Position numbers and translations under genes: made by a program
DNA from: a virus
IMG/VR virus record: IMGVR_UViG_3300042879_002476
Coordinates: 1-64,000 of that record
Length of the DNA: 64,000 nt
Strand: one strand, 5' to 3'
Notes under the pieces: generated by a model
What the model saw: the letters and a program-made list of their open reading frames with translations, nothing else
What the model was told of the DNA's origin: nothing
Databases searched by the model: none
Shown: one piece after another, positions 31,532 to 43,778 of the stretch
Layout of the letters: every line of letters begins with the position of its first letter
How positions within the stretch are numbered: the first letter of the stretch is position 1

Positions 31532-31560
31532 ATTATCATATATTTATAGTATATGATAAT
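31532..31560 (+). promoter_or_regulatory. Putative late promoter in a perfect 11-bp inverted repeat
   Basis: TATTTATA at 31541-31548 ends 4 bases before the ATG at 31553. ATTATCATATA (31532-31542) and TATATGATAAT (31550-31560) are exact inverted repeats around TTTATAG, so the start codon itself lies in the right arm. Confidence 0.6.
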
Positions 31561-34500
31561 TAAGAAACAGCGCACGTATTTAGGATTAGATATATACCCG
31601 TCGTATATAACTGATACATCCCCGACCTCCGTAGATTATCTAAAACTAGATAGCATGCCTTCAGAATTAACTGCGGGCAAAAACGTGTTAAAAATATTAG
31701 GAAATACTAACGTTTTCAAACAAGGTTCTCCTATTTTAGTGGAAGTATTAGACAGTCGCCGAAATACCATTTATGTAGAATTTCCTAATTATTTCGATTC
31801 TTTAAAAAGAAGGTTGATAGTAATTAACATAACTGAAGACACGGCTCCCGGTCCTGCATTAATTACTATTTGTTCGGTACTAAACGAAAATTTAGTACCT
31901 TTAGAATTCAACAATACGTTTAACTTTAAGTGGCAAGCTATTATTAATGTAGCGCCTTTTAAATCTAATACAACCGAAATTGTTTATATAGACCCTCCTA
32001 CAGTTGAATTACGAACTCGAGTTCGACCGTATGTTACTACTTCGTTTCGTAATAACGAGCAAATGATAACTAAGGAATATGGGGACTATGAATATTTAGA
32101 TTTTAATTTTGACGATTACGTTGGCAGCAATGATGGTGCGAGTAGTATATTTCAAACACAAGATGCGAATACGGTTTTAAATTCATTTACTAATGCATCT
32201 ATAACATCTTTTGATAGGGATAATGTTTTTTATTTAAAGCCAGAAAATTATTCTGCTAAAACAATAAATAGAAATTATCCGATAATCGAGCCTAGTAAAG
32301 ATTTTTATGTTTCATTAGGTTCGAATATAATAGGAAATTACAATTCGTTTGGCACTTGGGATCAATCCGGAAATACGATAGGCACTGATGCTAATCGAGG
32401 CAATATATTAATACGAGGAATTGCAGGGTCTTATGTAGGACGTCCCGTAAATACGATGCCAGGCAATTATTATTTAGTTGCCGTTGATGTGAGTCAAAGT
32501 TTAAGCACGTCATATGATATTTCGGCTGCATTGGGATATAATGAATCTAGAAATTCCGGTAGTATATCGGAAAATGTACGCGTTTCTATAAATGAAAATG
32601 CGAGTACTAATACTTGGGAAACTTGTTATGCAGTAGTCAGAGCCAGCGATGCTGGGAATTATTTGTGGTTATTTTTCGGTGGTACTGCTGGTAGTATAGA
32701 TAACGTACGCGTGTTTCCTATAAACGGTATAGGCACTCCGGATTTTAAATTAGAAACGGATTTAATTGGAGGGTTAATAAAAGTAAACCGTCCTAATATT
32801 AGTCCGCAAACAGCATCCGGATTAACATTGTATAACACGGATACTGCATATAGATCGTATATAAATTTTTTATTGCGAGATAAAAATGCAGCTGCCAACG
32901 GTGCATTTACATATAATTTAGTAAAAGAATCGGAACTATCAAATCCTACCACATTTACAATAAATAGGCATAAAATAGAAAGATTTACTTCTAGAGCACA
33001 GATATCTCAAACGAATTTAAATAATACATTCGTAGATTCATACGTACAGGCAGCTTCTTTTGTAGATCCGTACGGAGCTAGTGTGCTATTAACCATTGTC
33101 GAAGGGCCTAATAATACGTTTTATGGTCCTATATTCGCTGGAGGAGCGGGGAACGGCGGTGGTATTTTTAGTTATAATACAGACACTAACGTATTAAACA
33201 CTGAACATTATTTTAATACCAGTAAATTTTCAGGAAAAGAGCCTTCAACAAAGTTTTTATATTTAAAAGGCGGGTCAAACCCTGGAATGTATGGTACTAC
33301 TAATTTTGGAGGTAGGTTTAATTCCGGATCTTTATTTAGATTCGATCCGCAATCTAAAATTGTAACTAAATTACATGACTTTGGATTAACCAGCGGATCT
33401 AGTACATTTACTACTAATAGTGGTTGGTTTCCATATGGCAGTTTAATGCAGGCTTCTAATGGTTTATTATATGGCACCACCGCAAATCCGTCACCTGGAG
33501 GGCCATATGGCACCGTATATAGTTTTAATACTAGTTCTAATGAACATAAAGTATTCCTTTTAAATGGAGGAGTTGATGCTGCAAGATTAATTGAATCCGG
33601 AGGATTTTTGTTTGGAGTTAAGGGATATCAAACTGCACAGGGCGATATTGTTAAAATAAATCTATCTACGGGTACCACTTCTAGTTTTGCACTTAATGTC
33701 ACTCAAGGTAAAATACCTTCCGGGTTAATAATGGGAAGTGATGGTTATTTATATGCTACGACCTTTACCGGGTCCGCTTCATCCGGTACTGGGGGAACTA
33801 TACTTAAAGTAGATTCCGGAACCGGTGTTATAACTAAATTATTTGATTTAGATACTGTATTATCCGGATCGGAAGCGGAACGAGAGTTATATGAGGATTC
33901 CGGGCATTTTTATGGAATGTGTAATGCCGGAGGTCAGTTTTCTAAAGGTACTGTGTTTAGATTTACCACCGGGTCTGGAGGAACGTTTGAGGTGTTACAT
34001 CATTTCTCAGGAGGCAGTGATGGTATCGGAGCAAAATCTAATTTTATTAGATTAGGAAATTCTTTATACGCAAACACTACGAATGGCGGTACCTCGAATG
34101 CCGGTACTATTTTTAGATTAGATAGAATTGGATTGAATAGGCCTTTCGTGTTTCAAGAAGCCGGGACTATTTATCATCATAACGCAATATTACCCAAACC
34201 CATACCAGCAACTAGTTCCTTATTAATAGATTATCCTAGATGGACCGGACCGGTTAAATTGAACGAAAATGATTTATATTCTATTGTAGAGTTAGAAATT
34301 AAAGATTTAGACCCCGTGACCGGAGATGTATCTAAATTAAAATTGTCTGCTAAACCTCAAGGATTGAAAGGAGAATTTGTAGATTTAGGTGTATACTCTA
34401 CAAAACCGGTAGATATATTAATAGATAATAATTTTGTTAATCACGTACATTATTCAGATTCTCCCTATAGATTGGCAGGATATTTTAAGCCAGTTATATC

Positions 34501-36502
34501 CTCGTTTTCCGATTCATCATTAGAAAAAAATTCATTTAAACAACTATCATTTGCGACCGGATGGGCAACGGCGTCTGTAACGGAATCAAACTATTTTAAA
34601 GGAAATCAAACTTTTGCGCCTAGTATGTCTATAAAAGATGCTCCTGAATTAAACTTAAATAGAGGAGCATGTTTTAGAATTGAATTGCAGAATACTCCTA
34701 CTGAAAATATGTTAGGATGCATTATTTATACTGCGAGCGCCATACCTCCTGGATTAACTAATTTAAATTTATGGGAACAGTTTAGTTATAATTTATATTC
34801 AGCTGCACCGTTTCCGATTGGAATGGATATTACTGCAAGTGATTGGTATACTAGCAGTTTAGGCTATAACATTAATAAATTTAATTCTATTTTAGTGTAT
34901 TCTGGATTAGTAACTAAAACCGGATCTATATTAGCTCCTGAAGATATTTACGCGATTAGCGATAAAATATCAAACGCATGGGCTATTAGCGGTTCTGGTA
35001 ATACTGCTTCTATTGCAATAGGACACCCATTAACTTTTAATAATAAACTAGGATGGATCACTGATACATATTTTATAACTAGTTCAGTAGCATCAACCCA
35101 ACCACTATATCCTGCAATATTTTTTGAGTATAATACTATACATGACTCTATATTTAGTAGCAGCATTAGTACTACCCGGCCGCATATTGTAGAAGTTTCT
35201 AATGTTAGTTGTCGTGAAATAGGCGATAGAGATTATATGATAGATACATATTGGGATTCGGAAATTGGAAATTATGGATACAATACGCAAATAGCAGGAG
35301 TGCCGTATACTCCTAGTAACACTGATAAATTAGCAGATTCAGTTAAACTAACAGTATATGACGGAGTTACCGGTATTACTAGTAGTTTAGGTTCAGCATA
35401 TAAAAATAAAAATGCGGTGTTATTTAAAACTGCTGATTCATATAAATTTTATAAAAACGTTCCTTATATAATAAGTTTTAATGCGTTTAGTCAGATAAAT
35501 GAAATACGAGGCGTAGACCCTGCCCCGGTAGTAAGTAATCTAGGATTCCCCTTTGTTGGCGCTCCCGGATGGGGCAACAACGGATCTGGATGGACTGAAA
35601 ATACCGGACAAAAATGGAAAGCATATAACTTTGGCAGTTCGACCTCAGGATATATACGACTTAATGATATTGATTTCTTTGCTAATACCAGATATCAAGT
35701 TAAAGTAACTACAGGAGCGTTTACCTATTTACCTGAATATAATATAACTACATTATCCGTTATATCCGGATCCGTGACTTCGTCTATATCTAATATTCGA
35801 CCTAATACCACGTATACGTTTTATTATACCCATGGTACCACAGATACTACCGGACCAAAAATACAATTAGATTCTACATTCACAGATTCAAATCACACAA
35901 TTTATTTAACTGGAGTAGATATTAGAAGATATGATTACGATTTTAAATCTAATACCAATTTAAGTTCGGTACTACCTTCAAGTTCAAAATTAAAAGTGTA
36001 TGGTATTAATACAAATTTTGGAGTACCTTTTGCAGATCAATTAACAACTGCAGATCCTGGAGAGTTTATAGGTGAATTGGAACAGACGTTAACATACGGG
36101 CAATCCGGTGAGACTAAATACTTCGGTCGTGTAGAAATGGAATTCGCTCCGGAAACTGAAGGATTCGGTAATATAGGATTTGAAACAGATTTAGGAGCGG
36201 AATGGTATATCAGTGATATTTCAATTAGACCTAAAGATAGAGTAGGATTAACTCCGGCATCTACTAGATTATTTATTAAAATACCTAATGATTTAGTAAA
36301 TAAAAAGTTAACTTTTAAAATTGAATATTTGAATGATTCAAACTCTAAAGCCGTGTACAATACATTATTAAACGATGTAATGTTTTCTAATAAAGACGAA
36401 TCAATATCAGGAATAAAAGGAGTTTTAGATTCTTCTATGAATTCAGTTACGGAAGATGACACTACTAGCACCGGACCTAACTCAGACCCACCGACTACTT
36501 AA
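31553..36502 (+). CDS. Giant tail fibre protein with beta-propeller repeats
   Basis: A 1649-residue structural protein, the longest in the window. Residues about 520-860 hold roughly six repeats of the type LYGTT..GG....GT(V/I)F.(F/Y)(D/N)...G....L..F (for example YGTTNFGGRFNSGSLFRFD and YANTTNGGTSNAGTIFRLD). This matches the TIGR03803-like repeat, which I expect to form a beta-propeller. The parts before and after are beta-rich sandwiches, some with carbohydrate-binding-like features (SWETCYAVVRASDAGNYLWLFFGG, YFGRVEMEFAPETEGFG). Position next to other fibre genes suggests a host-recognition fibre. There is no chaperone or protease domain at the C-terminus. Confidence 0.75.
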   Translation: MIIKKQRTYLGLDIYPSYITDTSPTSVDYLKLDSMPSELTAGKNVLKILGNTNVFKQGSPILVEVLDSRRNTIYVEFPNYFDSLKRRLIVINITEDTAPGPALITICSVLNENLVPLEFNNTFNFKWQAIINVAPFKSNTTEIVYIDPPTVELRTRVRPYVTTSFRNNEQMITKEYGDYEYLDFNFDDYVGSNDGASSIFQTQDANTVLNSFTNASITSFDRDNVFYLKPENYSAKTINRNYPIIEPSKDFYVSLGSNIIGNYNSFGTWDQSGNTIGTDANRGNILIRGIAGSYVGRPVNTMPGNYYLVAVDVSQSLSTSYDISAALGYNESRNSGSISENVRVSINENASTNTWETCYAVVRASDAGNYLWLFFGGTAGSIDNVRVFPINGIGTPDFKLETDLIGGLIKVNRPNISPQTASGLTLYNTDTAYRSYINFLLRDKNAAANGAFTYNLVKESELSNPTTFTINRHKIERFTSRAQISQTNLNNTFVDSYVQAASFVDPYGASVLLTIVEGPNNTFYGPIFAGGAGNGGGIFSYNTDTNVLNTEHYFNTSKFSGKEPSTKFLYLKGGSNPGMYGTTNFGGRFNSGSLFRFDPQSKIVTKLHDFGLTSGSSTFTTNSGWFPYGSLMQASNGLLYGTTANPSPGGPYGTVYSFNTSSNEHKVFLLNGGVDAARLIESGGFLFGVKGYQTAQGDIVKINLSTGTTSSFALNVTQGKIPSGLIMGSDGYLYATTFTGSASSGTGGTILKVDSGTGVITKLFDLDTVLSGSEAERELYEDSGHFYGMCNAGGQFSKGTVFRFTTGSGGTFEVLHHFSGGSDGIGAKSNFIRLGNSLYANTTNGGTSNAGTIFRLDRIGLNRPFVFQEAGTIYHHNAILPKPIPATSSLLIDYPRWTGPVKLNENDLYSIVELEIKDLDPVTGDVSKLKLSAKPQGLKGEFVDLGVYSTKPVDILIDNNFVNHVHYSDSPYRLAGYFKPVISSFSDSSLEKNSFKQLSFATGWATASVTESNYFKGNQTFAPSMSIKDAPELNLNRGACFRIELQNTPTENMLGCIIYTASAIPPGLTNLNLWEQFSYNLYSAAPFPIGMDITASDWYTSSLGYNINKFNSILVYSGLVTKTGSILAPEDIYAISDKISNAWAISGSGNTASIAIGHPLTFNNKLGWITDTYFITSSVASTQPLYPAIFFEYNTIHDSIFSSSISTTRPHIVEVSNVSCREIGDRDYMIDTYWDSEIGNYGYNTQIAGVPYTPSNTDKLADSVKLTVYDGVTGITSSLGSAYKNKNAVLFKTADSYKFYKNVPYIISFNAFSQINEIRGVDPAPVVSNLGFPFVGAPGWGNNGSGWTENTGQKWKAYNFGSSTSGYIRLNDIDFFANTRYQVKVTTGAFTYLPEYNITTLSVISGSVTSSISNIRPNTTYTFYYTHGTTDTTGPKIQLDSTFTDSNHTIYLTGVDIRRYDYDFKSNTNLSSVLPSSSKLKVYGINTNFGVPFADQLTTADPGEFIGELEQTLTYGQSGETKYFGRVEMEFAPETEGFGNIGFETDLGAEWYISDISIRPKDRVGLTPASTRLFIKIPNDLVNKKLTFKIEYLNDSNSKAVYNTLLNDVMFSNKDESISGIKGVLDSSMNSVTEDDTTSTGPNSDPPTT

Positions 36503-36526: not shown

Positions 36527-36534
36527 TATTTATA
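36527..36534 (+). promoter_or_regulatory. Putative late promoter, leaderless spacing
   Basis: TATTTATA ending only 4 bases before the ATG at 36539, whose start is fixed by the protein family. Confidence 0.6.
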
Positions 36535-36538
36535 ATAG

Positions 36539-38233
36539 ATGAAAACTATTGCTATATATCCGGGTAGATTCCAACCTTTTGGAAAACACCACGCCGCTAC
36601 TTTTTTATGGGTACAAAATAAATTTGGTAAAAATAATTCATTTATAGCTACGAGTGATATTGTAGATCCTATGCAAAATCCTTTTTCTTTTAATGAAAAA
36701 AAAGCGATTATATCTGCATACGGTCTAGGCAATAGAGTTAAAAAAGTACGAGATCCTTATAAATCAGAAGAGATAACTAAAATGTTTAATCCTAATGAAA
36801 CTGCAGCAGTATTTGTTGTAGGAAAAAAAGATTTAGACCGATTACGAGTTGATTCTGGAGGATACTTTTTAACATACCCGGGCCCGAATAAAGAACTAAA
36901 ACCTTTTTCAGAAAACGGATATGTATTAATTGCCCCTCATATTAGTTTAAACGTTCCCGGTTATGGGGAAATGAGCGGTACTCAAATTAGAAAAGCATTA
37001 GGCGATACTTCAAAATCTAGAAAAGAAAAAGAGGCACTCTTTAATAATGTATTTGGTTGGTATTCGCCAAAAATGGCAGAATTTATTTTTACTGTTTTAG
37101 AAGATATGTATGATTCACAAATAAATGAAAATAAGTTATTTAGTAAAGAATGGTGGAGATTTATTTTAACTGAAACTCAGAAATTAGAAGAAGGAGGAGC
37201 CGCAGGACACATGGCCCACCCTTTTGACTTACCACAAGTAAAGACAGGTACGGATTTAGTTAAAGTGTTTGCAGATGCAGCTAAGTCATTACAAGAAACT
37301 CCGGCAGCAGTTAAAATCGACGGTGTAAACACCACATTAAAAATAGTTAAAAAAGGAGGTAAAACGCAGTTTGCCTTAGATAGAGGATCTATGAATCCTT
37401 TAGATGTAGAGGGCATAACTGTAAACGATTTAAGTTCTAGATTTGCAGAAGGTCATGGAATGCTTACTTTAGGAAAAAAAGTTTTAGAAGCCTTTAATGC
37501 GTGTCTTCCAAAAATAACTGCGGAATTATCTGCCTTAGGAATGTTAAAAGATCCTACTATTTTACTTAACGTAGAAACCGTAATTGGCGATACTTCCGGA
37601 AAAACTAATGTCATTTCATATCAAGAGAACTTTTTTGTAATACACGGTCTATTAAAATCTGAACAAGCTACACCTAAACGCAGACAACAAAAAGAAATTA
37701 GTGGAAGTGCGGTGGCTATTCAGAAATTGGTAGATAAATGCAAACCTATAATGAAAGATTTGGGTTATGGAATATACGGTATGATACCTACTGCAGTTAA
37801 AAAGTCTATTACGTTTACCTCTCCTATCAACACCCAATTAACGGTGAAATATACTAAAAAGAAAAAAGAAACTAAATCATTAAAAGATTGGTTAAAAACT
37901 GCTAAAAATCCTATTAACGATAAAGTAGTAATTAATGGGAAAGCAGAACCGGCAATGACCAGAAAAAATTATTTGAATATTTTAAATCAAACTATTCCAT
38001 TAGATGAATTAACTACGGATCCTAAAGAACAGAAAAAATTAATAGACGGTGCAGTAATGTATCATGCCACTCGGTTATTAGGAAATGAAGTCATCAATAA
38101 TTTAGGTTCTGATGTGGGGGACGTTTCTTCACACGAAGGCATAGTGATTCGAGACCCTAAAATATCTACTACACCTTTTAAAATTACAGGTGAATTTATC
38201 GTTAAAGGATTAGAAAGTAGTTTTGGTAAATAA
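36539..38233 (+). CDS. Nucleotidyltransferase fused to a ligase-like domain
   Basis: A 564-residue two-part enzyme. Residues 1-190 follow the NMN/pantetheine-phosphate adenylyltransferase fold: IAIYPGRFQPFGKHH at the start and MSGTQIRKAL near 145. The usual HxGH is altered to GKHH (residues 15-18), losing the first histidine. Residues about 225-564 look like a covalent nucleotidyltransferase (DNA/RNA ligase superfamily): K259 in VKIDG (KxDG motif I), LLNVETVIGD as a candidate motif III, HEGIVIRD as motif IV and FKITGEFIVK as motif V. Similar ligase-like proteins with a GHMxHPxD lead-in are common in marine T4-like phages. Activities are predicted, not shown; it could act in NAD metabolism coupled to RNA end joining or capping. 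Confidence 0.75.
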   Translation: MKTIAIYPGRFQPFGKHHAATFLWVQNKFGKNNSFIATSDIVDPMQNPFSFNEKKAIISAYGLGNRVKKVRDPYKSEEITKMFNPNETAAVFVVGKKDLDRLRVDSGGYFLTYPGPNKELKPFSENGYVLIAPHISLNVPGYGEMSGTQIRKALGDTSKSRKEKEALFNNVFGWYSPKMAEFIFTVLEDMYDSQINENKLFSKEWWRFILTETQKLEEGGAAGHMAHPFDLPQVKTGTDLVKVFADAAKSLQETPAAVKIDGVNTTLKIVKKGGKTQFALDRGSMNPLDVEGITVNDLSSRFAEGHGMLTLGKKVLEAFNACLPKITAELSALGMLKDPTILLNVETVIGDTSGKTNVISYQENFFVIHGLLKSEQATPKRRQQKEISGSAVAIQKLVDKCKPIMKDLGYGIYGMIPTAVKKSITFTSPINTQLTVKYTKKKKETKSLKDWLKTAKNPINDKVVINGKAEPAMTRKNYLNILNQTIPLDELTTDPKEQKKLIDGAVMYHATRLLGNEVINNLGSDVGDVSSHEGIVIRDPKISTTPFKITGEFIVKGLESSFGK

Positions 38234-38566: not shown

Positions 38567-39130
38567 ATGTCGGTTTTAGGATCAAATTTAGATCGTATAA
38601 AAAATATTTTAGCTGGTAACCCAACTGCTAAAAGCAAATCATCAGTGGGATATGAAAAGACCACTAAAAAACACGTAGAAGGAGACGTTTGGGAAGAAAA
38701 TGGTCGTATGTGGACTATTAAAAATGGTATTAAACAAAACGTAACTAAATTGGATTCTGCGAGAAAACAATTGCTAGTGCCATTTAAATGTCCTGAATGT
38801 GAAAATCAATTAAAACATCCTTTGCATAAACATTCATATAAAACCACAGGTAAATGTTATGATTGCGTAATTAAAGAAGAAACTGCTATGCGTATAAATG
38901 GCACGTATCAAAACTATGCAAATGAATTATATAGAAAAAACGCTTTAGCGTGGTTAGAAGAGAAGCGAATACAATTCGAGGACTTTATAAATAACCCGGA
39001 AACTTTACGCGGATTCGTGACCGAAAGGGGTGATGTGGAAGATTGGTATGGCGGTATCGACCGTGAAAAAATCCGAGAGCAATTTGAAAAAGAATATGCT
39101 CAAATTAAAGAAGAAATAGAAAAACTTTAG
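38567..39130 (+). CDS. Zinc-ribbon protein
   Basis: A 187-residue protein. CPEC (near residue 75) and CYDC (near 99), with intervening LKHPLHKHSYKTTGK, form a zinc ribbon. Before it is EGDVWEENGRMWTIKNGIKQNVTK, a short segment I know from T4-like phage proteins near the terminase. The C-terminus is a charged helix. A DNA-related or head-assembly role is possible; the family is uncharacterised to my knowledge. Confidence 0.7.
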   Translation: MSVLGSNLDRIKNILAGNPTAKSKSSVGYEKTTKKHVEGDVWEENGRMWTIKNGIKQNVTKLDSARKQLLVPFKCPECENQLKHPLHKHSYKTTGKCYDCVIKEETAMRINGTYQNYANELYRKNALAWLEEKRIQFEDFINNPETLRGFVTERGDVEDWYGGIDREKIREQFEKEYAQIKEEIEKL

Positions 39131-42185: not shown

Positions 42186-43778
42186 ATGTCAACTCAGTTA
42201 CGTGAAATAATCAAAGAAGAATACAAAAAGTGTGCCGCATCTCCGGTATACTTTATGAAAAAGTATTGTTACATTCAACACCCAACACGTGGTAAACTAC
42301 TTTTTAATCTATATCCATTCCAAGAAAAAACATTAGAGCAATTTGATTTACATGATTATAATATCATTCTTAAATCGAGACAATTAGGTATATCTACATT
42401 GACTGCTGGATATGCGTTATGGCTAATGTTATTTAAGGCCGATACAAACGTATTGGTAATTGCTACTAAACAAGATGTAGCTAAAAACTTGGTAACCAAA
42501 GTTAGGGTAATGTATGATAACTTACCTTCTTGGTTACGAGGTAATGAAAGACCGACAGCAAATAATAAATTAAGTCTTGAATTAGAAAACGGTTCTAAGA
42601 TTAAAGCAGTATCCTCAGCAGCTGACTCCGGTCGTTCCGAGGCATTGTCTCTTTTGATTATTGATGAGGTTGCGTTTATTGATGATAATAAAGTAGTTCC
42701 AATTTGGGCATCATCTCAACAGACGTTAGCAACTGGAGGTAAAGCAATCCTCCTTTCTACTCCTAATGGCACTGGTAACTTTTTCCATAAGACGTGGATA
42801 GACTCAGAAGCAGGTACTAACAAATTTAATACTATTAGATTGCCGTGGACAGTACATCCGGATAGAGATTTAAATTGGAGAAAGGAACAAGATGAACTAT
42901 TGGGACCTAGACTTGCAGCACAAGAATGTGATTGTGATTTTTCAACATCAGGAAACACTGTTATTCCTATTGATGCTATCGATTGGTATGAACAAACCTA
43001 CGGTAGAGATCCTATAGAAAAAAGAGGTATAGACGGAAATTTCTGGGTTTGGGAATCTGCAGATTACTCTAAAAACTATATAGTATCTTGCGACGTTGCA
43101 CGTGGCGACAGTACTGACAATTCCACTATTCAAGTATTTGAAACCACTACTTTAGGACAGGTTGCCGAATATAAAGGACAATTAGGTACTAAAGATTTCG
43201 GTAATATGGCAGTAGCCATTGCCACCGAATACAATGATGCATTATTAGTAATTGAAAATGCTAATATTGGATGGGCAGCAATTCAACCTGCTATTGATAG
43301 AGGATATAAAAATCTTTATTATTCACATAAATCAGAAGATGTATTAAATGATCCTTTAAAACATTTGAAACGTGGATTTGATTTACGCGATACTGCTGAT
43401 ATGGTTGCCGGATTTACCACTTCTACTAAAATACGTCCTATGATGATTAGTAAAGTAGAATTGTATATCCGAGAAAAAGGATTGATAATTAGAAGTAGGC
43501 GCACGTTAGATGAGTTACGCGTTTTTATTTGGAAAAACGGTAAACCTCAAGCACAATCCGGATATAATGATGACTTGGTAATGTCATTGTGTATTGGAGT
43601 GTGGGTACGTGATACTGCTTTACAATTGAGACAAATGGGATTGGAATTAAATAAGTCAATGTTAAATTCATTCACCAGAGTTGGAGGAGTATATAGTCAT
43701 CAAAACGGTACTCAATCAGATCCATGGAAATGGAAAGTGGACGGTAAAGATGAAAGTCTTGATTGGTTAATCCGATAA
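42186..43778 (+). CDS. 17: Terminase large subunit, T4 gp17-like
   Basis: A 530-residue packaging motor (T4 gp17 is 610). The ATPase part has the degenerate Walker A KSRQLGIS near residue 62 (T4: SRQLGKT, so the usual lysine is isoleucine), Walker B LLIIDEVAF and coupling motif STPNGTG. The RNase H-like nuclease has acidic residues in SCDVARGDSTD, VIENANIG and YNDDLVMSL. It translocates DNA into the prohead at the portal and cuts the concatemer. No obvious small terminase gene is adjacent. The portal gene follows after a promoter-like octamer. Confidence 0.93.
   Translation: MSTQLREIIKEEYKKCAASPVYFMKKYCYIQHPTRGKLLFNLYPFQEKTLEQFDLHDYNIILKSRQLGISTLTAGYALWLMLFKADTNVLVIATKQDVAKNLVTKVRVMYDNLPSWLRGNERPTANNKLSLELENGSKIKAVSSAADSGRSEALSLLIIDEVAFIDDNKVVPIWASSQQTLATGGKAILLSTPNGTGNFFHKTWIDSEAGTNKFNTIRLPWTVHPDRDLNWRKEQDELLGPRLAAQECDCDFSTSGNTVIPIDAIDWYEQTYGRDPIEKRGIDGNFWVWESADYSKNYIVSCDVARGDSTDNSTIQVFETTTLGQVAEYKGQLGTKDFGNMAVAIATEYNDALLVIENANIGWAAIQPAIDRGYKNLYYSHKSEDVLNDPLKHLKRGFDLRDTADMVAGFTTSTKIRPMMISKVELYIREKGLIIRSRRTLDELRVFIWKNGKPQAQSGYNDDLVMSLCIGVWVRDTALQLRQMGLELNKSMLNSFTRVGGVYSHQNGTQSDPWKWKVDGKDESLDWLIR

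Follow-up and report, generated by a model that had tools for sequence, protein, structure and literature searches.

RNA ligases of the Rnl1 and Rnl2 families carry a second lysine in motif V (KxK). In the viral RLIG1 enzyme, the motif residues are K73, D75, R89, E174, H195, E240 and K253 according to the available part of PMC11494293. As regards adenylyltransferases, the available text of PMC9503650 states that every phage bearing NadM also has NadV, and the part of PMC8131947 at hand gives no post-transcriptional enzyme for capping RNA with nicotinamide adenine dinucleotide (NAD) as known at its writing. Polyvalent phage proteins have also been described, with Pol-beta nucleotidyltransferases (NTases), GNATs and metallopeptidases listed for them (PMC5512222, available part). 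A nicotinamide mononucleotide (NMN) adenylyltransferase (NMNAT) fused to a ligase-type domain is not reported in the literature searched, which did not include subscription papers and preprints. Here we describe a gene at 36539..38233 (+) of a 64,000-nucleotide stretch, referred to as the window, from the 66,390-base virus record IMGVR_UViG_3300042879_002476. From its open reading frame (ORF) and structure model, the gene is read as a fusion of an HxGH-type adenylyltransferase with a ligase-type nucleotidyltransferase domain bearing a KxDG motif (the KxDG domain). The ORF is uninterrupted, counts 564 codons from its ATG start and comprises two domains with a linker between them, and the antisense strand across the same interval holds many stop codons.

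Results

Pairing of the two domains in uncultured phages

The linkage of the two domains was assessed in the best 80 loci obtained with a query of the KxDG domain only, which represent the least biased sample. In 74 of these loci, the KxDG domain is paired with an adenylyltransferase of the HxGH type, either fused to it (66 loci) or encoded by the next gene (8 loci). Among the fusions, the HxGH domain is N-terminal in 58 and C-terminal in 8, while the next gene of the split pairs lies on the same strand in seven cases and on the opposite strand in one. As for the six unpaired loci, the KxDG ORF is cut by the contig end in three, the flank is shorter than 1.5 kb in L202, and L199 and L207 have full flanks; L199, L202 and L207, in which no HxGH domain was seen, form a single branch of the KxDG tree. 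L160, a locus outside the 80, shows no HxGH domain either. The 80 loci hold 905 ORFs of at least 100 amino acids (aa), and the 74 that matched the HxGH models, themselves derived from relatives of earlier scans, are the 66 KxDG ORFs and the 8 neighbours, with no match elsewhere. Of the 66 fused ORFs, 58 contain the motif, and the remaining eight are either cut at the contig start (five) or listed from an internal ATG (three); L086, L094 and L087 (the last on the same contig as L186), when read upstream, are open as far as the motif. A second survey of 163 other loci agrees with this linkage count, but it is biased through the ranking of its loci by two-domain queries, and the count from the 80 loci is the one relied on.

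For the KxDG tree, 147 domains were thinned by similarity to 89, of which 86 were labelled by architecture and three unlabelled ones remained uncounted; it is a quick tree, built without bootstraps, and nine long branches were flagged in it. The 86 labelled tips require at least 17 architecture changes (12 for order or fusion, 7 for the HxGH subfamily), compared with 50 on average when the tip labels are shuffled. Since the pairing is kept while order, fusion and HxGH subfamily keep changing, the two domains appear to serve one process. Taken together, linkage and tree make the strongest case for a coupling of the two activities, which we consider very probable from these sequence comparisons. 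An initial annotation of this DNA had proposed a cofactor-coupled reaction, such as NAD-dependent joining or capping; the coupling is upheld by the fused or adjacent pairs and by their rearrangements in the tree, whereas the NAD-dependent form of it is not.

The family was reached by scanning contigs with a relative from Microcystis phage Mel-JY01 as a seed, and then with alignment A1. In viral contigs, all 304 pattern matches to the Mel-JY01 query were confirmed as relatives, as were at least 576 among the 600 matches listed for alignment A1 and at least 553 among the 599 listed for the KxDG domain alone. Matches in 50,697 phage records were one named isolate (Mel-JY01) and two uncultured phage records, and the KxDG domain yielded two contigs from a collection covering 84,980 prokaryote species. 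With many relatives in viral contigs and few in the phage and prokaryote collections, the family appears to belong almost wholly to uncultured phages.

Predicted folds and catalytic residues

In the AlphaFold2 (AF2) model of the whole 564-aa protein, the mean predicted local distance difference test score (pLDDT) is 91.6, and two confident domains are separated by a disordered linker, a low-confidence segment of about 20 aa (aa 199-221, 37133..37201, +). The N-terminal domain (aa 1-198, 36539..37132, +; pLDDT mostly 85-98) has, in this model, the HxGH nucleotidyltransferase fold of NMNATs and phosphopantetheine adenylyltransferases (PPATs). Its top PDB matches in Foldseek are the bifunctional NMN adenylyltransferases 2qjo (E 1e-6) and 2qjt (E 6e-6), and in the VIA structure comparison the archaeal NMNAT 1m8j (Z 12.8, root-mean-square deviation (rmsd) 2.7, 147 aa), with the PPAT 3pxu tied at 12.3. 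The cytidyltransferase family PHROG 395 (phrog_395) also matches the domain (E 1.6e-6), and with the fold matches to NMNAT and PPAT structures this bears out the N-terminal NMN or phosphopantetheine adenylyltransferase named in the initial annotation. Pfam CTP_transf_like stays under its family cut-off (E 0.0045), and the NCBIfam NMN adenylyltransferase models, which are the best-named relatives of the domain, give E-values of 8e-4 to 0.1, far under their cut-offs, with a best score of 18.4 bits against a curated NMNAT cut-off of 355. A PDB sequence search with the full protein yielded a weak NMNAT match only. The further suggestion that this domain makes NAD is not supported, given the PPAT ties and the curated NMNAT cut-offs that are not reached.

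The first signature of the domain is GRFQPFGKHH (aa 9-18, 36563..36592, +), a GxHH form of HxGH in which H18 is invariant in alignment A2. Across the 38 aligned rows (columns G15/H17), the signature is GxHH in 23, as in the window protein, HxGH in 14 and SxHH in one. R10 and H18 are invariant across the 38 rows, and K97, D98 and R151 across 39. The second signature, SGTQIR (aa 146-151, 36974..36991, +), is of the SxTxxR type, with S146 kept in 38 and R151 in all 39 rows. Judged from the alignment, the adenylyltransferase catalytic residues are kept in the window protein apart from the first His.

The C-terminal KxDG domain (aa 212-564, 37172..38230, +) has, as modelled, an ATP-grasp, RNA-ligase-type nucleotidyltransferase fold. 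The AF2 model of this domain by itself reaches a pLDDT of 91.5 and a predicted template modelling score (pTM) of 0.88, and its closest structures in VIA are those of T4 Rnl1, namely 5tt6 (Z 9.3, rmsd 4.1, 184 aa), 2c5u (9.1) and 9do4 (8.8, same enzyme), followed by Naegleria, tRNA, archaeal and trypanosome RNA ligases at Z 7.4 and below. RNA or DNA ligases fill all 50 VIA rows listed, with the DNA ligases lower, and likewise the first 11 rows in Foldseek (E 0.012-0.022). The model thus places a ligase fold around K259, the point on which the initial proposal had been staked beforehand. No model of the Pfam, PHROG and NCBIfam libraries tested recognises the domain, and no Pfam family matches it at cut-off. 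Regarding membership in Rnl1 or Rnl2 by sequence, a Pfam scan at E 1 gave no PF09511 or PF09414 match in the window protein, and a PF09414 search of the window's record gave none either; a separate search for PF09511, the T4 Rnl1 family, carries no information, its control having given no signal. Sub-cut-off Pfam matches to LysM_OapA (E 0.0028, aa 233-291) and Herpes_gQ2 (E 0.21), as well as a weak NCBIfam transposase match on the C-terminal domain (E 0.12), were discarded as unsupported by the structure model.

Motifs I, Ia, III, IIIa, IV and V are present in this order (K259xDG, R282, E346, H369, E533GxV and K548), all on the + strand. A family hallmark, HMAHPF (aa 224-229, 37208..37225; H224 in 61/61 rows, H227, P228 and F229 in 63/63), lies about 30 aa ahead of K259, the predicted AMP carrier in motif I (K259-I-D-G, 37313..37324, 63/63). 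K259, D261, G262 and R282, the last representing motif Ia (37382..37384), are each found in 63 of the 63 KxDG rows of A2. The column of E346 (motif III, 37574..37576) holds 63 E and 8 other letters in A2, where it also includes rows with the adenylyltransferase only, and it is invariant in alignment A3. H369 (motif IIIa, 37643..37645) is kept in 62/63, a His being likewise present in motif IIIa of viral RLIG1. Between motifs IIIa and IV, which are about 160 residues apart in the window protein, a long insertion is delimited at aa 391-520 (37709..38098) by A3 and by the elements of the model. It is followed by motif IV (E533-G-I-V-I-R, 38135..38152; E533 and G534 in 62/62) and motif V (K548-I-T-G, 38180..38191; K548 and T550 in 62/62). 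The KxDG, EGxVxR-like and motif V segments were thus correctly pointed out in the initial annotation, and they are invariant in the family where placed. Order, spacing and conservation suggest that the motif positions are equivalent to those of ligases, and being invariant across the family and accompanied by a matching fold, the motifs are not chance matches. By alignment, the set of ligase catalytic residues is complete and near-invariant in the family.

Inserted domains in relatives

The interval between the HxGH and KxDG model matches ranges from 13 to 973 aa (131 rows, HxGH first), and in some relatives it holds whole domains within one ORF (L118 1431-5660; L225 1099-4935; L136 5650-10095; L114 1256-3568). 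In a search against the PDB, the insert of L118 matched Mn/Fe superoxide dismutase (SOD; 1.5e-44 to 3tjt), and further inserts are plastocyanin (L118, L225), DUF192 (L136, L225) and SET (L114), with a GNAT domain likewise present in relatives. PDB searches with other inserts gave weak matches to an uncharacterized fold for L136 and none for L210 and L232. Kinase domains accompany RNA-repair and NadR-type proteins, and P-loop kinase domains of the AAA_33/Zeta type precede the adenylyltransferase in some long relatives from the Mel-JY01 branch. ParB was found in one relative from a huge phage, and PAP2 in one split relative.

Genomic setting

The genes recognised in the record (terminase, portal, major head, baseplate wedge, primase and SbcC-like) indicate that the window virus is probably a T4-like myovirus. 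A large terminase gene at 42186..43778 (+) places the ORF in a virion-gene region. This terminase is closest to those of Flavobacterium phage immuto and Microcystis phage Mel-JY01, with 54% identity, and a terminase recurs downstream in 23 of the 80 loci. Directly upstream of the ORF, at 31553-36502, a 1649-aa protein with GloVer-type repeats (TIGR03803, 1.2e-40) is encoded, which is likely tail-fibre-like. The neighbouring gene at 38567..39130 (+) codes for a zinc-ribbon protein with relatives in 52 of the 80 loci, nearly all of which follow the KxDG gene at a distance of no more than 1.2 kb. In another part of the window, a tmRNA gene (4712-5096, +; Rfam RF00023, 94 bits) is flanked by genes for tRNA-Arg (4196-4268) and tRNA-Glu (5098-5170).

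At the syntenic position of phage immuto, which lies between primase and terminase, the encoded protein of 907 aa (immuto26A_183, L165 7125-9848) contains an HxGH domain (1.5e-30). The KxDG domain, its divergent form included, was looked for in this protein and not found. Its N-terminal part displays a Pol-beta-like motif recognised by eye, and its C-terminal half gave a weak metallopeptidase match.

The ORF is preceded by TATTTATA (36527..36534, +), which ends 4 bases before the ATG. Within 45 nucleotides (nt) upstream of the 54 listed starts lie 13 of the 22 + strand copies of this sequence, and the two most frequent 8-mers in these 45-nt stretches are ATATTTAT (15/54) and TATTTATA (13/54). 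Copies on the + strand at, for example, 5188, 8761, 12766, 36527 and 38237 are located 4-28 nt before start codons. Such recurrence before starts makes TATTTATA a likely promoter-like element. No copy of the T4 late sequence TATAAATA was found upstream of the ORF on the + strand. The late promoter of the initial annotation is thus partly right, in that a promoter-like element is likely, with late activity and a place of the protein in the virion as mere possibilities.

Other genes for ligation, replication and NAD metabolism were surveyed in 25 pair-carrying records of 54-235 kb, including that of the window, some of which may be incomplete. A match to an ATP-dependent DNA ligase occurs in one of them and a PF09414 RNA ligase in one, the same record; this 132 kb record (L187, G013) is the only one of the 25 with both besides the pair. 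The NAD-dependent ligase LigA (PF01653) was found in none of the 25, the window's record included, in a search whose control was positive in 11 of 14 genomes. A replicative helicase family of the DnaB type is present in 13 of the 25.

Discussion

The folds, the catalytic residues and the near-obligate linkage of the two domains are drawn from sequence and structure prediction. In regard to function, we tentatively favour, at a little below even confidence, an enzyme that activates or seals the 5' ends of nucleic acids and is coupled to an adenylyltransferase for a nucleotide cofactor, perhaps in end repair or protection. According to this proposal, K259 of the C-terminal domain would take AMP, with formation of an enzyme-AMP predicted, and the AMP would then be passed to the 5'-phosphate of a nucleic acid, more likely RNA, whose end would be activated for sealing as in RNA ligases. 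The N-terminal domain, with ATP as its AMP donor, would adenylylate a small phosphate compound, for which NMN or a nucleotide like it is the most likely candidate. Its part in the shared pathway may be to make or recycle a nucleotide donor, or to repair the cofactor pool during end repair. During infection, the protein would likely help to repair nucleic-acid ends or to protect them, possibly from the defences of the host.

Several observations weigh against this proposal. On the side of the N-terminal domain, Gly replaces the first His of HxGH in the window protein, and the tie of PPAT with NMNAT structures means that the fold leaves the choice between NMN and other substrates unsettled. NAPRTase/NadV was detected in none of the 25 pair-carrying records, which thereby break the rule of NadM together with NadV; this speaks against ordinary NAD salvage, and the reading as a usual phage NAD-salvage gene is weakened by it. 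Regarding the KxDG domain, a Foldseek search against the PDB gave no match at E 1e-3 (best 0.012), its profile found no ligase among PDB sequences, and a Z of 9.3 exceeds the scores possible between unrelated folds by only a moderate margin; without a ligase match by sequence profile, the kinship with ligases rests on fold and motifs. Motif V is KxT, with Thr in 62 of 62 rows, in place of KxK. No RNA- or DNA-binding domain follows it, and the chain stops 16 aa later, leaving neither an OB-fold nor a C-terminal domain of the Rnl1 type. As for the linkage, the two domains of some relatives are separated by entire enzymes of unrelated kinds (SOD, plastocyanin), inserts that a model of tight channelling leaves unexplained.

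An alternative is a modular counter-defence or virion-delivered protein, with the two enzymes as separate weapons on a single chain. The HxGH domain would then refill NAD+ after attack by a host NADase and the KxDG domain would reseal cleaved tRNAs, while further cargo sits in the linker, as in polyvalent phage proteins. The variable interval of 13-973 aa holding SOD, plastocyanin, DUF192 and SET, the GNAT domain of relatives, the ParB, kinase and PAP2 domains of others, and the location of the gene among those for tail fibre, terminase and portal all agree with this, as does the listing of Pol-beta NTases, GNATs and metallopeptidases among polyvalent proteins in the available part of PMC5512222. 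Yet the pair remains constant while the cargo varies, and it stays adjacent even as two genes, neither of which independent weapons would need; with NAPRTase absent from all 25 records as well, we regard this explanation as possible but unlikely. A scaffold or assembly factor derived from inherited folds, serving for example in tail-fibre attachment, would also fit a gene among virion genes and whole enzymes as inserts, but a non-enzymatic protein has no need of catalytic residues that are invariant in both domains across 38-63 rows, which makes it the least credible of the explanations considered here. Hardly more credible is that the protein serves as the phage's own DNA nick-sealing ligase, substituting for the usual one. 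Neither an ATP-dependent DNA ligase match nor PF09414 was found in 24 of the 25 records, nor the NAD-dependent ligase in any of them, and the replicative helicase family occurs in 13, all as expected for such a substitute; nevertheless, the records may be fragments, several loci lie beside virion rather than replication genes, no OB-fold or motif VI follows motif V, and RNA ligases are the closest structures, with DNA ligases lower.

Another explanation is post-transcriptional 5' capping. Either the KxDG domain would turn p-RNA into AppRNA, or NMN would be attached to pppA-RNA by the NMNAT-like domain, and the phage RNA would end up ADP- or NAD-capped. In the available part of PMC8131947, ADP capping is named as a potential activity of RNA ligases and NAD capping as a speculative one of NMNATs, and since the protein unites both classes, the fused pair is a natural candidate. 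The same source mentions unpublished tests in which E. coli NadD and NadR capped no RNA. Furthermore, HxGH subfamilies that are not NMNAT-like also accompany the KxDG domain, and no RNA-binding domain was recognised, so that we consider capping of this kind quite improbable. Somewhat less improbable, though still doubtful, is a coupling of an NMN-type adenylyltransferase to a lysine-nucleotidyltransferase in which one protein both produces a nucleotide cofactor and uses it to cap or activate the 5' ends of finished transcripts, or in which NMN set free by a ligase that consumes NAD+ is recharged directly. If either is true, this enzyme would, going by the literature searched, be the first one dedicated to such a task.

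Whichever of these applies, a ligase-type domain that belongs to no family of the libraries searched is common in uncultured phages and has an adenylyltransferase fused or adjacent in more than nine tenths of the complete cases, which suggests that the reaction depends on the two activities together. The pair makes it testable whether dedicated enzymes tie the synthesis of nucleotide cofactors to RNA 5'-end chemistry, and the relatives bearing SOD and plastocyanin raise the question of phage delivery or processing of a polyprotein cargo.

Compared with known systems, the KxDG domain shares with T4 Rnl1 (5tt6/2c5u) the nucleotidyltransferase core and the order of motifs I to V. It differs in being undetectable by sequence profile, in the KxT of motif V and the long insertion between IIIa and IV, in having no C-terminal tRNA-specificity domain and in being fused to, or placed beside, an adenylyltransferase. 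RLIG1 of human and Yasminevirus, in the available part of PMC11494293, is alike in KxDG, Arg of Ia, Glu of III, His of IIIa, Glu of IV and the single Lys of V, and the spacings are similar, with 21 residues from III to IIIa against 23 in the window protein and 13 from IV to V against 15; no fused adenylyltransferase is described for RLIG1 in that part of the article, and RLIG1 is absent among the 50 VIA rows listed. NMNATs of the NadM/NadR type (2qjo, 1m8j) share the fold, the SxTxxR signature and the invariant second His of the N-terminal domain, whereas the window protein has GxHH instead of HxGH, remains under the curated cut-offs, has a KxDG partner and not a Nudix or kinase one, and lacks a NadV partner in the 25 records. 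Polyvalent phage proteins, as presented in the available part of PMC5512222, are similarly large, shuffled multidomain chains near virion genes; HxGH adenylyltransferases and RNA ligases are not described there as their domains, the nucleotidyltransferases it lists being of the Pol-beta type, and the window family keeps a fixed pair. Finally, the cytidylyltransferase-like protein of Microcystis phage Mel-JY01 (PP395634.1) has the same two-domain layout, with 34% identity over query 2-370, but it belongs to another branch of the KxDG tree (HMNHPFDD, KLDGxN), is 639 aa long and is annotated for its N-terminal half only.
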